This document shows positions 26,918 through 35,115 of a stretch of 64,000 nucleotides of DNA, in pieces. A program made the position numbers and the translations under genes. The first letter of the stretch is position 1, and each line of letters opens with the position of its first letter. Source of the DNA: Bordetella petrii (GTDB lineage Bacteria > Pseudomonadota > Gammaproteobacteria > Burkholderiales > Burkholderiaceae_B); NCBI GenBank assembly GCA_017745595.1, contig WMBV01000008.1, positions 1 through 64,000 on the forward strand. Reading direction: 5' to 3'. The notes beneath the pieces are model-generated. The model ran no database searches. It had not been told where the DNA came from and saw only the letters and a program-made list of their open reading frames with translations.

Positions 26918-27913
26918 TTACTTTTTGATCAGGCCGAAACTGTCGGCCAGTTCGCGGTACATCTTCACGCGTTCTTTGACGTAGGCGTCGAGTTCGGCGC
27001 CGGTCTTCTTGAACGGAAACAGGCCTTGCTGTTCACGCAGCTTGGCATATTCGGGCGAATCCATCGTCTTGTTGAAGGCGTCGACCCAGAATTGATAGTC
27101 CTGGTCCGACACCTTGGGGCCCACGTAGAAGCCGCGGATGATGGGCCAGTCGATGTCATAGCCTTGTTCTTTGGCGGTGGGCACCGAATTCAGCTTGCCG
27201 GGCAGGCGTTCGTTGTTGAACACGGCCAGCACGCGGATCGGCGCGCCGCCTTCCAGCATGGTGAAAGCTTCGGCCGCGTCGCCCATGTAGGCCTGGATGT
27301 GGCCGCCGCGCAGTGCCGTGACGGCCTCGCCGCCGCCCTCGAAGGCTACGAACCGCATCTTGCGGAAGTCCACCCCGGCCGCCTTGGCGGTCAGGGCCGC
27401 TTTCATCCAGTCCTGGCTGCCCACGGTGCCGCCGGCGCCCAGCACGATCTTGGTGGGGTCTTGCTTGAAGGCCTCCATCAGGCTCTTCAGGTCGGTGTAG
27501 GGCGAATCGTTGCGCACCACGGCCACGCCATAGTCGGTGCCGATGCCGGCCAGCCAGCGCACGTCATCGACGTTGTACTTGCCGAACTTGCCCTGCGCCA
27601 GATTCAGTAATGAGCCCCCCGAGAACGCCACGATGGTGCCGGGTTCGTCGGGATGCTGGGCCACGATGTTGTTGTACGCCACGGCGCCGATGCCGCCCGG
27701 CATGTAGATGATGCGCATGGGCTCTTTCAAGGCGCCGCTTTGCTTCAGGCCTTCGGTGGCCAGCCGGCAGGTCAGGTCGAAGCCGCCGCCGGGCTGGGCC
27801 GGCGCCACGCATTCGGGCCGGCGCGGCTCGTCGGCTGCATGGGCAGCCATGCCCACGGACAGGGCGCATGCGCCAATAACCGCCGCCAGGCGGGCTTTCA
27901 GGAAGGATTGCAT
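26918..27913 (-). CDS. tctC: Periplasmic tricarboxylate-binding protein TctC (Bug family)
   Basis: This 331-residue protein has a signal peptide ending in AAHAAD. The mature N-terminus contains PECVAPAQPGGGFDLTCRL. The paired cysteines in this segment are typical of true TctC citrate/tricarboxylate binders rather than general Bug receptors. IYMPGGIGAVAYNNIV and the C-terminal KKTGAELDAYVKERV region also fit. It probably binds citrate or a related tricarboxylate in the periplasm and hands it to TctAB. It lies after the regulators tctD-tctE and before tctB. Confidence 0.94.
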   Translation of the reverse strand: MQSFLKARLAAVIGACALSVGMAAHAADEPRRPECVAPAQPGGGFDLTCRLATEGLKQSGALKEPMRIIYMPGGIGAVAYNNIVAQHPDEPGTIVAFSGGSLLNLAQGKFGKYNVDDVRWLAGIGTDYGVAVVRNDSPYTDLKSLMEAFKQDPTKIVLGAGGTVGSQDWMKAALTAKAAGVDFRKMRFVAFEGGGEAVTALRGGHIQAYMGDAAEAFTMLEGGAPIRVLAVFNNERLPGKLNSVPTAKEQGYDIDWPIIRGFYVGPKVSDQDYQFWVDAFNKTMDSPEYAKLREQQGLFPFKKTGAELDAYVKERVKMYRELADSFGLIKK

Positions 27914-28027
27914 CTTGCGGTCTCCGTGAATCGCTTTTTGGATGTCGTCGTAAGCGGGCCGCAGCCCGGGAACGGGACCTTGGCCAACGGATCAGAACCG
28001 TACTCAATGCAGGCTTTCCGGAACCTT

Positions 28028-29500
28028 TCAGTTTTCGGCAATTTCGTGCCGCAGCGCAGCATTCGGGAACGAACCTAGGGTAAACACCAATGCCGCGCGC
28101 AGGCCCGGCAGCGGGGCACGGTTCTCGAGCACCATTTTGCCGCCGTGGATTTCGACAATCGTGCCCACGATGGCCAGCCCCAGGCCGGCCCCCGGCTTGT
28201 TCTTGCCGGCCGCGCCGCGCCGGAACCGGACGCTGGCCCGGGCAATGTCTTCGGCCGACATGCCGGGCCCGCTGTCTTCCACCGTGACCCGGGCATAGCG
28301 CTCATCGGCATAGACCCGCACCGTGACCTGGCTGGCCGGCGCCGTATAGCGGATCGCGTTGTCGACCAGGTTGCTGAGGGCCTCGCGCAGCAGCCAGTCG
28401 ACGCCCTGGATGCGCACCGGCAGGCTCGAGGCCTCGAGGCCCAGGTCCAGCTGGCGCGCGCGCGCCGCGGGCAGCAGGCCGCGGATGACCGCCTGGGCCA
28501 CTTCCGCCAGGTCGACCGGCCCGGACGCCAGGCCGCCCTCGGCCAGCGATGCATCTTTGGCGCGCGCCAGCGCCAGCATCTGGTTGGTGGTGCGCACGGC
28601 GCGGTCCAGGCCTTCTTGCATGGCCAGCAGCACCGTGCGTACCTCGGCGGGGTCGGATTCGCGCAGCGCATAGGCGGTTTGCATACGCAAAACCGACAGC
28701 GGCGTGCGCAATTGATGCGAGGCGTCGTCCAGGAACTGCCGCTGCAGCCTCGCCTGGGCCGCAAAACGGCCCATGTGGAGATTTACGGCATCGACCAGGG
28801 GGCTGACCTCACCCGGGATGTCTGGCGCGTCTACGGGGCTGAGATCGTCCGCGGACCGGCCTTCCACTTCCTGGCGCAATCGTTCCAGGGGGCGGACCGC
28901 CCTGAAAACGCTCCAGACCACCACCAGCACCACGATGGCGATGACCACGACGTCGCGTTCCAGCGCCCGGACCAGCGCCCGTTGCAGGAAGTCCTGGCGC
29001 GATTCGAGCGTTTCGGCCACCTGCACGATGACCCGCCCCCCCTGGTTGTTGTACAGCGGAGGATCCATCGGCCGTGCCAGCGCCGCCACACGCAGCGGCA
29101 CGCCCTGGTATTCGGCGTAGAAGAACTGCGGCTGTCCGGATACCAGCGGCTTGTCGGGCAACGGCAGGTTGGGGCTGCCGATCTCGGCCAGGCCGTCTTC
29201 GGTGGCGACCCGGTAATACACGTTGCCGTTGGCCGTGAGCTCGAAAAATTCCAGCATCAGATACGGCTGTTCCATGGCCAGCCCGCCGCTGGCTGTGGAT
29301 ATGTTGTGATCGATGGAACGCAGCGCGCCGGACAGCGAGCGGTCGTAGGCCAGGTCGACCTGATGCCGCAACTGGTAATTGGACAGCCACAGGGCCACCA
29401 GCATGATGCAGACCAGCGCCGGGATCAGCCACCATAGCAGCAGCGACTTCAAGGTGCGCGGGGTGGCGGGCCGGGTCCACCGGCCGGGCCTAGTTTTCAA
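28028..29500 (-). CDS. tctE: Sensor histidine kinase TctE
   Basis: This 490-residue membrane histidine kinase has helices at about 20-38 and 184-199 bounding a periplasmic sensor domain. The phospho-accepting histidine is His262 in DDASHQLRTPLSV. The ATPase domain shows EALSNLVDNAIRYT, DSGPGMS and GAGLGLAIVG. The start is tentative: a TTG at 29500 that overlaps the end of tctD by 11 bases; no ATG precedes the first membrane helix. It should sense extracellular tricarboxylates and phosphorylate TctD to induce tctCBA. Confidence 0.92.
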   Translation of the reverse strand: MKTRPGRWTRPATPRTLKSLLLWWLIPALVCIMLVALWLSNYQLRHQVDLAYDRSLSGALRSIDHNISTASGGLAMEQPYLMLEFFELTANGNVYYRVATEDGLAEIGSPNLPLPDKPLVSGQPQFFYAEYQGVPLRVAALARPMDPPLYNNQGGRVIVQVAETLESRQDFLQRALVRALERDVVVIAIVVLVVVWSVFRAVRPLERLRQEVEGRSADDLSPVDAPDIPGEVSPLVDAVNLHMGRFAAQARLQRQFLDDASHQLRTPLSVLRMQTAYALRESDPAEVRTVLLAMQEGLDRAVRTTNQMLALARAKDASLAEGGLASGPVDLAEVAQAVIRGLLPAARARQLDLGLEASSLPVRIQGVDWLLREALSNLVDNAIRYTAPASQVTVRVYADERYARVTVEDSGPGMSAEDIARASVRFRRGAAGKNKPGAGLGLAIVGTIVEIHGGKMVLENRAPLPGLRAALVFTLGSFPNAALRHEIAEN

Positions 29501-30167
29501 GAACGGCCTCCAGGCAATAGCCCATGCCCCGCAAAGTGACGATTTGCACGCCCGTGTCGGCCAGTTTTTTGCGCAACCGGTGTACCAGCACTTCGACGGC
29601 TTCGAGGTTGACGTCGGAATCGTCGGTCTGGATGCGATCGAGGATTTGCTGCTTGTTCATGGGTTCGCCGCTGCGCTGGATCAGTGCGCGCAGCACCGCG
29701 TATTCGCGCGGCGACAGTGGCAGCGGCTGGCCGAGCACGCTGAAACGCTGGGCCGAGGTATCCAGCGTCAGGTTGCCCAGCGTCAGCCGCGGGTGGTCGC
29801 GGCCGCGGCTGCGGCGTATCAGCGCGGTGAGCCGGGCTTCGAGTTCCTCCAGCACGAACGGCTTGGGCAGGAAGTCGTCGGCGCCCTCGTGCAGCGTACC
29901 CACGCGTTCGGCCAGCGAATCGCGGGCGGTCAGCACCAGCACCGGCGTGCGGTCGTCGCGGGCGCGGATCTTGGACAACAAGGTGTGGCCGTCCATGCCG
30001 GGCAACCCCAGGTCGAGGATGATCGCATCGAATTCTTCGACGGCCAGGCGGCGTTCGGCCAGCAGGCCGTCGTCGGCCCATTCGACCACGAAGCCCGCAT
30101 GGCGAGCGAGGCTGCGCGACAGCCATCGGGCCAGTTCGGCTTCGTCTTCTATGAGCAGGATACGCAT
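29490..30167 (-). CDS. tctD: Response regulator TctD (OmpR family)
   Basis: This 225-residue protein has a receiver domain with acidic residues near the N-terminus (IEDEAE), phospho-acceptor Asp52 in ILDLGLPGMDG and the conserved Lys in FLPKPF. A winged-helix DNA-binding domain follows (LSPREYAVLRAL, then VHRLRKKL and TLRGMGYCLE). It is the first gene of the tctD-tctE-tctC-tctB-tctA series, all on one strand. It should activate the transporter genes downstream. Confidence 0.93.
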   Translation of the reverse strand: MRILLIEDEAELARWLSRSLARHAGFVVEWADDGLLAERRLAVEEFDAIILDLGLPGMDGHTLLSKIRARDDRTPVLVLTARDSLAERVGTLHEGADDFLPKPFVLEELEARLTALIRRSRGRDHPRLTLGNLTLDTSAQRFSVLGQPLPLSPREYAVLRALIQRSGEPMNKQQILDRIQTDDSDVNLEAVEVLVHRLRKKLADTGVQIVTLRGMGYCLEAVLEN

Positions 30168-30507: not shown

Positions 30508-30547
30508 GAATTCGAGCGCAAGAAACCGATTCCTTGCGCTCGAATTC
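30508..30547 (+). promoter_or_regulatory. Ada operator within a 15-bp inverted repeat
   Basis: GAATTCGAGCGCAAG (30508-30522) is repeated in inverted form at 30533-30547 with a 10-base spacer. Each arm contains AAT-N6-GCAA, the A-box/B-box consensus of E. coli Ada. AATTCGAGCGCAAGA differs from the E. coli ada operator, as I recall it, at two central positions. It lies 42 bases before the chosen ada start. Confidence 0.75.
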
Positions 30548-30588
30548 CGGTCTACAGTGGGGTCATGCGTATATCCCTTGAAGCCGCC

Positions 30589-31722
30589 ATGAATGCTTTG
30601 CCTGCCGTACACGACTATATGACCGACGATACCCGTTGGGCGGCCATTTGCGCCCGCGACACCGCGGCGGACGGGCATTTTGTCTATGCCGTGCGCACTA
30701 CCGGGGTGTATTGCCGGCCCAGCAGTCCTTCGCGCCTGCCCAGGCGCGAGAACGTCAGGTTCTTCGACACGCCCGAGGCGGCCGAAGCCGCAGGTTTCCG
30801 GCCCAGCCGGCGGGCCGCCACGGATCGCAGTATCGTGGCGGCCCGCCGGGCGGCCCTGGTCGAACAGGCCTGCCGCCTGATCGAAAGCGCGGAAACACCG
30901 CCGGCCTTGCAACGGCTGGCGGCCCAGGCGGGGGTCAGCGTCTTTCATTTCCACCGCATGTTCAAGGCCGAAACCGGCCTGACCCCGAAAGCCTACGCGA
31001 ATGCCCATCGGGCGCGGCGGCTGCGGTCCGAACTGAGCGAGCCCGGAACGGTCACCCAGGCCATTTATGGTGCGGGTTTCAATTCCAACAGCCGGTTCTA
31101 TGAGGCGTCGGACAGCCTGCTGGGGATGCGGCCCCGCGATTACAAGGCGGGCGGACCCAACACCGAGATCCGGTTCGCCGTGGCGGCCAGCGCATTGGGC
31201 GCCATTCTGGTGGCCTGCAGCCAGCGCGGTATCTGCGCCATTTCCCTGGGCGATGATCCCGACGCCCTGGTGCGCGCACTGCAAGACCGATTTCCCCATG
31301 CGCGGTTGCAGGGGGGCGACCCCGCGTTCGAGCAACTGGTCGCCCAGGTAGTGGGCTTCGTCGAAGCGCCGGCCCTGGGGTTGAATCTGCCCCTGGATGT
31401 ACGCGGCACGGCGTTCCAGCAGCGGGTGTGGCAGGCCCTGCGCGATATTCCCGCGGGGGCGACGGCCAGCTACGCCGAGGTCGCCCGGCGCATCGGCGCG
31501 CCCAAGGCCGTGCGGGCCGTGGCCCAGGCCTGCGGCGCCAACCCGCTGGCCGTGGCCATACCGTGCCATCGGGTAGTCAGGCGCGACGGCGATATTTCGG
31601 GCTACCGATGGGGCGTGGAGCGCAAACGCGAACTGCTGCGGCGCGAGGAACCGCAAGCGCCGGCATCGTCCGCGCGCGGCGAGCCCGCCGGCGCGTCAGC
31701 CGGCAAAGCCACCCTGGTCTAG
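30589..31722 (+). CDS. ada: Ada-type regulator and O6-alkylguanine-DNA methyltransferase with degenerate N-terminal zinc site
   Basis: This encodes 377 residues with the three Ada domains in order: N-terminal methyl-phosphotriester domain (about 1-85), AraC-type helix-turn-helix (LQRLAAQAGVSVFHFHRMFK) and C-terminal methyltransferase with the acceptor cysteine in AIPCHRVV and GYRWGVERKRELLRRE. Of the four zinc cysteines of E. coli Ada (38, 42, 69, 72) only the first is kept, as Cys42 in YCRPSSPSR; the others are Ser46, Ser73 and Ala76. Phosphotriester sensing is therefore likely lost or altered, while O6-methylguanine repair should work. I chose the ATG at 30589 because the Ada operator and promoter need space; 30565 is an alternative. 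The 3' end overlaps the convergent DUF924 gene by 27 bases. Confidence 0.92.
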   Translation: MNALPAVHDYMTDDTRWAAICARDTAADGHFVYAVRTTGVYCRPSSPSRLPRRENVRFFDTPEAAEAAGFRPSRRAATDRSIVAARRAALVEQACRLIESAETPPALQRLAAQAGVSVFHFHRMFKAETGLTPKAYANAHRARRLRSELSEPGTVTQAIYGAGFNSNSRFYEASDSLLGMRPRDYKAGGPNTEIRFAVAASALGAILVACSQRGICAISLGDDPDALVRALQDRFPHARLQGGDPAFEQLVAQVVGFVEAPALGLNLPLDVRGTAFQQRVWQALRDIPAGATASYAEVARRIGAPKAVRAVAQACGANPLAVAIPCHRVVRRDGDISGYRWGVERKRELLRREEPQAPASSARGEPAGASAGKATLV

Positions 31723-32286
31723 AAACGCCTGTTCTTCGGGCGTGGTCTCGCGTCCCAGCAACCGATTGCGATGCGGGAAACGGCCGAACCGCTCGACGAT
31801 ATCCAGATGTTCTTTGGCGTGGTACAGCCACGGGTCGCCCAACGGCTGGTTCAGTTCGACCGCCTGGCGCTGGTCGGCCAGGTTCTCGGAATGGGACAGC
31901 GGCAGGTAGCAGAACACGCGCATGCCGGCTTCGACGTCGGCATCGCGTCCGGCGTGGATCAGGCGGCGGGCGTAGTAGCGCGCCAGCGGATCGGTGGCAT
32001 ACATGTGGCCGGTGCCGCGAAACGCGTTGCGCGGGAACTGGTCCAGCAGGATCAGCAGGGCCAGGGCGCCGTACGCAGTGGCCTCCCAGGCATCGCACTG
32101 CCGTTGGGCCGCCGCCATGTGCAAGTCGAGAAAGCGCGCGCGAAATGTCTCGTCGAATGCCGTGTCTTTGCGGAACCAGCTATCGGGGCCGGCCGTCCGC
32201 CAGAAGTCCACGACGGCGTTTGATTCGTTGGAGTGATCAGTCACGGTGGCATCTATGCGTGTAAGAAGGGACACGCGGGCCAGCAT
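31696..32286 (-). CDS. DUF924 family protein
   Basis: This 196-residue protein belongs to the DUF924 (YPO2225-like) family, an all-helical TPR-like fold of unknown function. Family marks are VVDFWRTAGPDSWFRKD, LILLDQFPRNAFRGT, YLPLSHSENLADQ and FGRFPHRNRLLGRETTPEE. The start is uncertain: ATG at 32286 or GTG at 32244, the latter giving VTDHSNESNAVVDFW, which is closer to the usual family N-terminus. It is divergent from narK1 and convergent with ada. Its role here is unknown. Confidence 0.9.
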   Translation of the reverse strand: MLARVSLLTRIDATVTDHSNESNAVVDFWRTAGPDSWFRKDTAFDETFRARFLDLHMAAAQRQCDAWEATAYGALALLILLDQFPRNAFRGTGHMYATDPLARYYARRLIHAGRDADVEAGMRVFCYLPLSHSENLADQRQAVELNQPLGDPWLYHAKEHLDIVERFGRFPHRNRLLGRETTPEEQAFLDQGGFAG

Positions 32287-32302
32287 ACCCAACCGGCCGA
32301 AA

Positions 32303-32315
32303 AAGAACTAGTCAC
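32303..32315 (+). promoter_or_regulatory. ACTAGTCAC motif upstream of narK1
   Basis: AAGAACTAGTCAC contains both halves of sequence also found upstream of narG (ACTAGTCAC at 35122-35130 and AAGAACTAGT at 35141-35150). It lies about 100 bases before narK1. The binding factor is unknown; no canonical FNR site (TTGAT-N4-ATCAA) was found in this interval. Confidence 0.35.
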
Positions 32316-32409
32316 ATTGCAGCGCGCCGGCCGGTCTGTCGGCGAATGTTCAGCCGGGTGTCATGTGTTTATCTTGCTTGACATGTCCACTGACATGAGC
32401 GAGGCCATC

Positions 32410-33663
32410 ATGGCACACCCCCTTCCAACGACATCCGCCAACCGGGTCCTGATCTCGAGCACTTTCGCTTTTACGATCTGCTTCGCGGTATGGATGATCT
32501 TCGCCGTACTCGGCATTCCCATCAAGAACCAGCTCGGTTTGTCCGAAACCGAATTCGGCCTGCTGGCCGCCATGCCCGTGCTGAGCGGTTCGCTGATCCG
32601 CGTGCCGCTGGGCATCTGGACCGACCGCTATGGCGGCCGCATTGTCTTCTTCCTGCTGATGCTGGCCGCGGTGCCGGCGGTCTGGCTGCTGGCATATGCC
32701 ACGGAATACTGGCAGTTCCTGGTACTGGGGCTGTTCGTGGGCCTGGCCGGCGGGTCGTTCTCGGTAGGCACGCCCTATGTGGCGCGCTGGTTTCCGCGCA
32801 ACCGCCAAGGCCTGGCCATGGGCATATTCGGCGCCGGCAACTCGGGTTCGGCCGTGACCAAGTTCGTGGCGCCGGCCCTGATCGCCGCCGCGGGCGGCGC
32901 CTGGATGATCGTGCCCAAGGTCTACGCGGTGGCGCTGCTGGCTACCGCCATCCTGTTCTGGGTGTTTTCGGCCACCAACCCGGCGCACAACGTGCGCACC
33001 GGCGCCAGCCTGTCGGCGCAATTGGCCATGTTGCGCGATCCGCGCGTATGGCGCTACTGCCAGTATTACTCGGTGGTCTTCGGCGGCTATGTGGCGCTGG
33101 CCCTGTGGATGACCAAGTACTACGTCGGCGAATACGGCTTCGACATGCGGCTGGCCGCGCTGCTGGCGGCTTGCTTCTCGCTGCCCGGCGGCGTGCTGCG
33201 CGCCGTGGGCGGCTGGATCTCCGACAAATACGGCGCCTATCGCACGACCTGGTGGGTGATGTGGGTGTGCTGGGTGGCGTTCTTCCTGCTCAGCTATCCG
33301 CAGACGCACTTCATCGTTGAAACCGACGTCGGTCCGCGTGAATTCTTCCTGTCGATCGGCCCCACGCTGTTCACCATCCTGATGTTCGTGGTGGGTATCG
33401 CCATGGCGATCGGCAAGGCATCGGTCTTCAAGTTCATCTCGGATGAATTCGGCGAAAACATCGGCGCGGTGTCCGGCATCGTGGGGCTGGCCGGCGGGCT
33501 GGGCGGCTTCGTCCTGCCCATCCTGTTCGGCGCCCTGCTCGACCTGACCGGTGTGCGTTCCAGCGCCTTCATGCTGATGTACGGCACCGTGTGCGTCTCG
33601 CTGGTCTGGATGCACTACAGCTTCCGTCCCGAATCGGTGCGCGGTTCGCTGCAACCCGCCTGA
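32410..33663 (+). CDS. narK1: Nitrate transporter NarK1
   Basis: This 417-residue MFS protein of the nitrate/nitrite porter family has about twelve hydrophobic segments. The nitrate signatures GLAGGSFSVGTPYVARWFP and, in the second half, GLAGGLGGFVLP are present, with the MFS motif GIWTDRYGGR between helices 2 and 3. This type is usually a proton-linked nitrate importer. The start MAHPLPTTSANRVLI at 32410 has AGCGAGG upstream at good spacing; the open frame extends 59 codons upstream without family similarity. It is first in the nar cluster and is followed by narK2. Confidence 0.93.
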   Translation: MAHPLPTTSANRVLISSTFAFTICFAVWMIFAVLGIPIKNQLGLSETEFGLLAAMPVLSGSLIRVPLGIWTDRYGGRIVFFLLMLAAVPAVWLLAYATEYWQFLVLGLFVGLAGGSFSVGTPYVARWFPRNRQGLAMGIFGAGNSGSAVTKFVAPALIAAAGGAWMIVPKVYAVALLATAILFWVFSATNPAHNVRTGASLSAQLAMLRDPRVWRYCQYYSVVFGGYVALALWMTKYYVGEYGFDMRLAALLAACFSLPGGVLRAVGGWISDKYGAYRTTWWVMWVCWVAFFLLSYPQTHFIVETDVGPREFFLSIGPTLFTILMFVVGIAMAIGKASVFKFISDEFGENIGAVSGIVGLAGGLGGFVLPILFGALLDLTGVRSSAFMLMYGTVCVSLVWMHYSFRPESVRGSLQPA

Positions 33664-33729
33664 TCCCCTTATTGCCACCCCTGTATGCCGGACGCCCGGG
33701 CGTCCGGCCCACCTGACTGCGAGAACACC

Positions 33730-35115
33730 ATGTCCAGCTACGTATTGAAGCGCTGGGAGCCGGAAAATCAGAGCTTCTGGCGCGACTCCGGCGCCCGCAT
33801 CGCCAACCGCAATCTTTGGATTTCCATCCCCGCTCTCAGCCTGGCTTTCTGCATCTGGATGCTGTGGAGCGTGGTGGTGGTCAACCTGGACAAGGCGGGC
33901 TTTGAACTGTCGAAGAACCAGATGTTCTGGCTGACGGCCCTGCCCGCCTTGTCCGGCGCGACCTTGCGCATTTTCTATTCGTTCCTGGTGCCCGTATTCG
34001 GCGGGCGGCGCTGGACCGCGATTTCCACCGCCACGCTGCTGATCCCCGCGCTGGGCATGGGCTTCGCGCTGCGGGATCCCAGCACGTCGTATCCCACGTT
34101 GCTGGCCCTGGCCTTGCTGTGCGGATTCGGCGGCGGCAACTTCAGTTCCAGCATGGCGAACATCAGCTTCTTCTTCCCCAAGGAAAAGAAAGGCTTCGCC
34201 ACGGGCATGAATGCCGGCATCGGCAACCTGGGCGTATCGGTAGTGCAATTCGTGGTGCCCGTCATCATCACGATGGGCGTGCTGGGCAGCCTGGGGGGCG
34301 ACCCGCAGCGCTTCGTGGTCGACGGCGTGGAACACCAGATCTGGCTGCAGAACGCCGGCTTCATCTGGGTGCCCATCATTCTGGCGTCGTCGCTGGCCGC
34401 GTGGTTCGGCATGAACGACATCGCCGACGCCAAGGCCTCTTTCGCCGACCAGGCCGTCATCTTCAAGCGTAAGCACAACTGGCTGATGTGCTGGCTGTAT
34501 GTGGGCACGTTCGGCTCGTTCATCGGGTTCTCGGCTGGCTTCGCCATGCTGACCAAGGCGCTGTTCCCCGACATCAATCCCGTTACCTACGCGTTCCTGG
34601 GGCCGCTGGTGGGTTCGCTGACACGGCCCCTGGGTGGCTGGATATCCGACAAGATGGGCGGCGCCCGCGTCACGCTGGCGGTGTTCGCCGCCATGATCCT
34701 GGCGGTGCTGGGCGTGCTGGCCTTCGTTCCCACCGAACACAGCGCGGGCAATTTCCAGGGTTTCCTGGCGATGTTCATCGTGCTGTTCGCGCTGACCGGC
34801 CTGGGCAACGGCTCGACCTTCCGCATGATTCCTATGATCTTCCTGCAAGAGCGCACCCGCGCGGCGCACGGGCTCGGCCCCGCGGCCGAACGGCAAGCCG
34901 TGATCGACGCCGGCAAGGAATCGGCGGCGGTACTGGGGTTCTCGGGCGCGATCGGTGCCTATGGCGGATTCTTCATTCCCCGCAGCTTCGGCTCGTCGAT
35001 CGAACTCACCGGCGACGTCGGGGCCGCCCTGTACTGCTTCATCGCTTTCTATGTCACCTGCCTGGGCATTACCTGGTGGTACTACGCGCGCCGCAACGCG
35101 CCGGTGCCCTGCTGA
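33730..35115 (+). CDS. narK2: Nitrate/nitrite antiporter NarK2
   Basis: This 461-residue MFS protein is longer than NarK1 and has the NarK-type N-terminus (KRWEPENQSFW, then RNLWISIPALSLAF). The family signature CGFGGGNFSSSMANISFFFP and a second ESAAVLGFSGAIGAYGGFFI are seen. This type usually exchanges nitrate for nitrite. A pair of NarK1 and NarK2 types allows import at the start of respiration and exchange later. It starts 66 bases after narK1. Confidence 0.93.
   Translation: MSSYVLKRWEPENQSFWRDSGARIANRNLWISIPALSLAFCIWMLWSVVVVNLDKAGFELSKNQMFWLTALPALSGATLRIFYSFLVPVFGGRRWTAISTATLLIPALGMGFALRDPSTSYPTLLALALLCGFGGGNFSSSMANISFFFPKEKKGFATGMNAGIGNLGVSVVQFVVPVIITMGVLGSLGGDPQRFVVDGVEHQIWLQNAGFIWVPIILASSLAAWFGMNDIADAKASFADQAVIFKRKHNWLMCWLYVGTFGSFIGFSAGFAMLTKALFPDINPVTYAFLGPLVGSLTRPLGGWISDKMGGARVTLAVFAAMILAVLGVLAFVPTEHSAGNFQGFLAMFIVLFALTGLGNGSTFRMIPMIFLQERTRAAHGLGPAAERQAVIDAGKESAAVLGFSGAIGAYGGFFIPRSFGSSIELTGDVGAALYCFIAFYVTCLGITWWYYARRNAPVPC

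Follow-up and report, generated by a model that had tools for sequence, protein, structure and literature searches.

Ada of Escherichia coli is the textbook zinc-thiolate electrostatic switch. The DNA-facing thiolates of C38 and C69 push the DNA backbone away as long as C38 is unmethylated, and R45 reads the A box (PMC4437013). A 2024 survey makes its main split between EcAda-like regulators, all said to carry four cysteines, and Cada2-like regulators, which lack the zinc-bearing N-terminal domain; in Caulobacter Cada2, methylation of Cys267 in a PCHR motif is reported as the activation switch (PMC10957082). The subject here is the ada gene of Bordetella petrii, within a window of 64,000 nucleotides (the whole stretch of DNA analysed, positions 1 to 64,000 of contig WMBV01000008.1 in assembly GCA_017745595.1). 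Its product retains the N-terminal Ada domain (N-domain) after losing three of the four zinc cysteines, and it represents a widespread subfamily. It is proposed, with moderate confidence, that this domain is no longer a phosphotriester switch and is still a reader of the A box, with sensing moved to Cys326 of the O6-methylguanine methyltransferase (MGMT) domain.

An Ada protein without a Cys4 zinc site

The protein has the EcAda-like architecture of N-domain, AraC-type helix-turn-helix (HTH) and MGMT domains. Pfam assigns 102.7 bits to Ada_Zn_binding, besides the AraC HTH and MGMT matches, and the NCBIfam Ada equivalog model scores 460 bits against a cut-off of 345; as this model accepts the protein as an ordinary Ada, annotation would hide the class. 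Residue equivalences come from alignment with E. coli N-Ada (1wpk), on which the C42 and C72 numbering was checked. All features lie on the + strand.

30589..31722, +: ada, 377 amino acids, N-domain free of the three zinc cysteines, AraC HTH and MGMT domains (open reading frame, Pfam, NCBIfam)
30631..30816, +: N-domain (PF02805 profile match), zinc-free version, absence of metal presumed
30712..30714, +: Cys42 codon (TGC), retained equivalent of the E. coli acceptor C38 (1wpk alignment)
30724..30726, +: Ser46 codon, at the E. coli C42 position (1wpk alignment)
30733..30735, +: Arg49 codon, equivalent of the A-box reader R45, invariant across aligned rows (alignments)
30805..30807, +: Ser73 codon, equivalent of C69, the second DNA-facing thiolate (alignments)
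30811..30813, +: Arg75 codon, equivalent of R71 (alignments)
30814..30816, +: Ala76 codon, at the C72 position (alignments)
30916..31146, +: AraC-type HTH domain, B-box reader (FHFHR; Pfam, alignment)
31411..31650, +: MGMT DNA-binding and active-site domain (Pfam)
31564..31566, +: Cys326 codon (PCHR), intact MGMT acceptor and proposed damage switch (alignment; analogy with Cada2 Cys267)

Hence the four positions that hold zinc cysteines in EcAda-like regulators here read C, S, S and A. The original prediction, that C42, C69 and C72 are replaced by Ser, Ser and Ala with the C38 equivalent kept, is borne out by the alignment, and its statement that no normal zinc site can form holds in that a Cys4 site is ruled out by the sequence. 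In the AlphaFold2 model, residues 11-70 form a block with a predicted local distance difference test score of 87-94 that matches the methylated N-Ada/DNA structure 1u8b; the full-length model has a predicted template modelling score of 0.31, such that no part of it beyond the N-domain and HTH can be used.

Distribution, selection and ancestry

All rows compared were selected for their similarity to this protein or its N-domain, hence none of the counts below is a frequency estimate. A family-wide search gave some match in 253 of 268 genomes, many only to the AraC or MGMT parts, and an order-wide PF02805 search found the domain in 152 of 399. The rows came from 129 places in the family, mostly the best-scoring full-length ones plus a sample lacking the N-domain, and from the 30 best PF02805 places in the order, with one further place from the order-wide search. 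Proteins are termed zinc-free where at least three of the four zinc cysteines are missing, from which we infer the absence of the metal.

The 157 classified rows comprised 32 with four cysteines, 56 with C38 only, 18 with none of the four, one mixed and 50 without the N-domain; a 153-row set included 106 with the N-domain (55 C38-only, 32 four-cysteine, 18 with none, one mixed). Among 177 aligned N-domains, 43 had four cysteines and 134 were zinc-free; of the latter, 111 keep C38, 22 have lost all four and one mixed domain keeps C42 alone. By reading, the best 80 named loci divided into 67 zinc-free (62 with C38, five without) and 13 four-cysteine. The C38-only pattern therefore marks a widespread subfamily, and its recurrence in 111/177 N-domains and 55/106 rows excludes chance or a sequencing error, the latter having been named in advance as a possible refutation.

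Hosts of zinc-free Ada include Bordetella and its family, many Pseudomonas, Dyella, Dokdonella, Collimonas, Ralstonia, Lysobacter, Marinobacter, Ottowia, Hydrogenophaga and a metagenome-assembled genome of the Polyangiaceae; the four best named loci belong to Bordetella sp. BOR01, petrii MY10, genomosp. 4 and one Dyella. A separate intact Ada elsewhere in the genome, for which a check had been suggested, was not found: the window domain is the sole PF02805 match in a 6.1-Mb genome with two further MGMT-type genes and one alkB. Among the 26 other genomes examined that encode a zinc-free Ada, 11 lacked any further PF02805 match and at least three Pseudomonas genomes also encode a four-cysteine Ada with PCHR; several of the additional matches sit in AlkA-like fusions.

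The zinc-free N-domain is conserved. R49 (R45), V32, P51 and F59 are invariant in 134/134, the last three being variable among the 43 four-cysteine proteins, and S73, at the C69 position, is Ser in 126/134. The C38 position is Cys in 111, Ala in 10, Gly in five (the Ada of L058, L061, L062, L065 and L066) and Asn in five, with His, Arg and Phe also seen; a quick tree calls for nine or more changes at this position. No additional Cys or His reaches 90% conservation across the zinc-free N-domains, hence replacement ligands within the domain, allowed for by the original prediction, are rejected for want of a candidate. Median ratios of nonsynonymous to synonymous substitution (dN/dS), from non-independent pairs with high dS, were 0.134 (C38 kept), 0.211 (no cysteine) and 0.224 (four-cysteine) for the N-domain, close within each class to the MGMT-domain values of 0.126, 0.239 and 0.212. 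Judged from these sequences, the zinc-free N-domain is under strong purifying selection.

The 153-row tree contains an 86-row clade without any four-cysteine protein (Shimodaira-Hasegawa-like approximate likelihood ratio test, 95). Outside it lie L078, L079 and L080, divergent Ada proteins with none of the four cysteines from three genomes of genus g4, which have no confident site upstream; one of these genomes (G058) has a C38-keeping Ada alongside. On quick trees with many weak forks, changes between zinc-free and four-cysteine states numbered two for the N-domain without its Cys columns and eight for AraC + MGMT in the same rows, suggesting that N-domains were exchanged between proteins. 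The sequences thus suggest one coherent domain type, seemingly exchanged. A single origin of zinc loss may hold for most zinc-free rows: it is supported by the 153-row tree, though not by the eight changes on the wider AraC + MGMT tree. In Nitrospirillum (L276, L284), a four-cysteine N-domain sits on AraC + MGMT parts that group with zinc-free proteins, as if exchanged.

The ada operator and its A box

Upstream of ada lies an inverted-repeat operator that, like the breadth of the subfamily and the lack of a second PF02805 domain, the original prediction had overlooked.

30508..30547, +: inverted-repeat operator, 40 bp (repeat search; pattern common to relatives)
30509-30512, +: A box AATT, part of the repeat
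30518-30521, +: B box GCAA, part of the repeat
30534-30537, +: inverted B box TTGC, part of the repeat
30543-30546, +: inverted A box AATT, part of the repeat
30553..30558, +: likely -10 element TACAGT (a similar TACA/TAT stands at the same distance in relatives)

The operator ends 41 nt upstream of the start codon and presents AAT-N6-GCAA in both directions, corresponding to the A-box and B-box sequences published for E. coli (PMC4437013, PMC3788762); the A box-N6-B box arrangement that EcAda-like regulators have in their own promoter is thus present at 30509-30521. It is the only exact match to AATTNNNNCGCAAGAAA in the genome, in which up to two mismatches gave 81 matches against 30 for the reversed control. 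This pattern was too narrow: the oxygenase-alkB site, which a different approach revealed, escaped it.

A confident site (score of at least 10) stands upstream of 143/153 orthologues; the ten promoters without one, including 5/18 of the no-cysteine class, were set aside. Sites were located by the B box and downstream part only, and the A-box slot was read afterwards. Counts by Ada class follow, in the order strict AATT; relaxed [AG][AG]TT; TTGC exactly +16 from GCAA; TTGC at +16 with an inverted A box.

Four-cysteine: 20/30; 27/30; 1/30; 0
C38-only: 37/54; 46/54; 30/54; 18
No cysteine: 12/13; 13/13; 0/13; 0
Mixed: 0/1; 0/1; 0/1; 0
Without N-domain: 0/45; 2/45; 1/45; 1

Hence relatives without the N-domain lack the A box and retain the rest of the site. 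In eight C38-only promoters TTGC stands at +12 instead, and in the oxygenase promoters that were read none was seen by eye at +16. With the inverted second site placed downstream of the first and ahead of the likely -10 element, one may speculate that a second molecule bound there limits transcription.

The A box at the oxygenase-alkB operon

The single alkB of the window's genome comes second in an operon, after a gene for a 2-oxoglutarate-dependent (2OG) oxygenase.

G000:C14:9654-13184 (L185): 2OG-oxygenase + alkB operon, preceded by a complete A + B + CGG site and by a TACACT element

The site reads AATT-N6-GCAA, with CGG 4 bp past GCAA where the window's ada promoter has CCG. The oxygenase was matched in 102/268 family genomes and 16/43 genera, adjacency to alkB being examined in the window's genome alone. 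The stretch before the oxygenase was read in 69 genomes, of which 12 were left out of the counts. A strict A box accompanied 12/21 C38-keeping and 6/11 C38-less or mixed Ada, against 0/25 genomes with Ada lacking the N-domain; the corresponding figures were 15/21, 7/11 and 0/25 for [AG][AG]TT, and 20/21, 9/11 and 1/25 for an A/T-rich slot followed by T, although most genomes of the last class are close relatives, hence few events, and the Ada class of five was not read directly (in one no Ada was seen). On these sequences, the zinc-free domain, even with none of the four cysteines, accompanies the A box at a separate gene.

Neighbouring and associated genes

Upstream of ada, 26918-30167 (- strand) holds genes for a TctC-type receptor, a sensor kinase and a response regulator; after it, 31696-35115 holds an opposite-strand DUF924 gene and two major facilitator superfamily transporters.

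Near some zinc-free ada genes is a gene for a protein of about 85 residues with a conserved GGHR and three Ada-type zinc cysteines (PF02805 29.6 bits), for which neither Pfam nor NCBIfam has a dedicated family and which elsewhere adjoins 2OG-oxygenase genes. At 12 loci in 11 genomes, one match being partial, its gene is no more than about 0.8 kb from zinc-free ada, and at several it overlaps ada or starts directly past its stop. The protein was noted at L216:2595-2831, L007:2604-2825, L234:2571-2807, L245, L256, L257 and L272, and also at L372-L383. It had no match at four-cysteine ada loci, within a downstream reach of 0.1-1.5 kb, nor in the window's genome or 251/268 family genomes.

Discussion

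The reading favoured here combines a standing DNA reader with a relocated sensor. With only one of the four thiolates left and Ser at the C69 position, the electrostatic brake should be absent; without zinc, and with a C38 thiol that is neutral or absent, the N-domain would be permanently ready for the A box, acting as the A-box-reading half of a DNA-binding unit whatever its methylation state. The damage switch may well lie at Cys326, where the retention of PCHR in 153/153 aligned rows and the Cada2 precedent both place it: by analogy, Cys326 would accept a methyl group from O6-methylguanine, upon which the protein would activate both ada and the oxygenase-alkB operon. Among the outcomes that the original prediction had offered, damage sensing by another route is thus the likelier one, whereas a silent protein does not fit an N-domain dN/dS of about 0.13 and a mostly retained A box.

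Several observations weigh against this. Firstly, the N-domain/A-box association contains only five supported independent pairs, of which an average of 4.2 (strict) or 3.7 (relaxed) agree and none is opposite (sign test p 0.06-0.5, with 0.05 out of reach for so few pairs). Secondly, the oxygenase-promoter count involved choices by eye, and treating four excluded weak sites without an A box as misses lowers the C38-keeping figures to 12/25 (strict) and 20/25 (A/T-rich). Thirdly, several C38-less proteins also lack Arg71 and yet have AATT at ada, such that Arg45 may suffice by itself to read the A box. Fourthly, C38 is kept in 111/134 zinc-free proteins, a higher share than one would expect if the residue had no use. 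Fifthly, the likeness to Cada2 is imperfect: CGG lies 4 bp from the B box, as opposed to 3 bp for the published X box, the window's ada promoter has CCG, and the second HTH shows SRFYE, not RLHD. As CGG is also present in four-cysteine Ada promoters, its use to diagnose a switch like that of Cada2 is rejected.

The persistence of C38 makes a lone-cysteine sensor the best-surviving alternative, albeit a tentative one. Here a zinc-less Cys42 would take a methyl group, directly from strong alkylating agents or slowly from phosphotriesters, thereby raising DNA affinity. C38 is indeed kept while the C72 position varies freely, and the inverted B box at +16 is confined to C38-keeping promoters when these are set beside the no-cysteine class (30/54 against 0/13). 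However, it is zinc that makes such a thiol nucleophilic. On the quick tree C38 also changes nine times or more, to A, N, G, H, R or F; the A box survives these changes, being present in relaxed form in 13/13 promoters of the no-cysteine class, with 5/18 set aside for want of a site; and the operator palindrome may simply mark one sub-clade. An extended version, somewhat more doubtful still, is a third class of regulator beside EcAda and Cada2, in which a standing A-box clamp and a lone Cys38, sensing alkylating or other electrophiles independently of zinc, are paired on the inverted double Ada box.

That the switch is lost outright, leaving a standing activator which senses nothing and holds both ada and the oxygenase-alkB operon switched on, seems unlikely. 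The expected absence of the brake would favour it, as would the five natural Gly proteins, C38 to Gly being said in PMC10957082 to render E. coli Ada constitutive. The same paper reports a constitutive Cada2 mutant to be compromised in mitomycin C, which counts against a lost switch, as does the universal PCHR motif, although repair alone would also retain it. More improbable by far is zinc still being bound, through other ligands or in trans with the small Ada-type zinc protein: the latter has C42, C69 and C72 equivalents and Gly at C38, and is encoded near zinc-free ada, but the N-domain has no new conserved Cys or His, and the small protein was found neither in this genome nor in most of the family. 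A functionless, decaying N-domain, to which the lost ligands and the complete absence of the domain from several lineages might point, is contradicted by conservation, given the four residues invariant in 134/134 and a dN/dS of 0.13 against 0.22 in four-cysteine Ada.

The zinc-free subfamily, going by its sequences, contradicts the four-cysteine rule of the survey (PMC10957082). In the Pseudomonas putida alkA promoter, an A-box change is reported to have weakened induction without abolishing it (PMC3788762), hence species may differ in how much depends on the A box. No published zinc-free Ada was found named in titles or abstracts, although most subscription papers were beyond reach and novelty is thus unproven. 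The subfamily, including its C38-less members, offers natural tests of which cysteine acts as the switch, and suggests a route from one type of switch to another.

With Caulobacter Cada2, as described in PMC10957082, the window protein shares the lack of an ordinary zinc switch, the B box GCAA, a PCHR cysteine that is the one acceptor certain to be competent, and CGG near the B box of the oxygenase-alkB promoter. It differs in retaining the N-domain and A box, in having SRFYE where RLHD is expected (a position judged without the Cada2 sequence in the alignment), and in a CGG that is 4 bp, not 3 bp, from the B box and absent from its ada promoter. Relatives of the same family without the N-domain, such as those of genus g2, share orthologous AraC and MGMT domains, the B box, CGGAGTG and an oxygenase gene with a similar site; they differ in having no N-domain and in missing the strict A box from 45/45 ada promoters. 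E. coli Ada (EcAda-like, NCBIfam NF011964) has in common the domain order, C38, Arg45, Arg71, the PCHR cysteine, the A box-N6-B box in its own promoter and a likely target operon with alkB, whereas the window protein is without three of the four zinc cysteines, its promoter has a second, inverted Ada box, and a 2OG-oxygenase gene precedes alkB in its genome. A subfamily that keeps the N-domain and its DNA site without the zinc site therefore falls between EcAda and Cada2.
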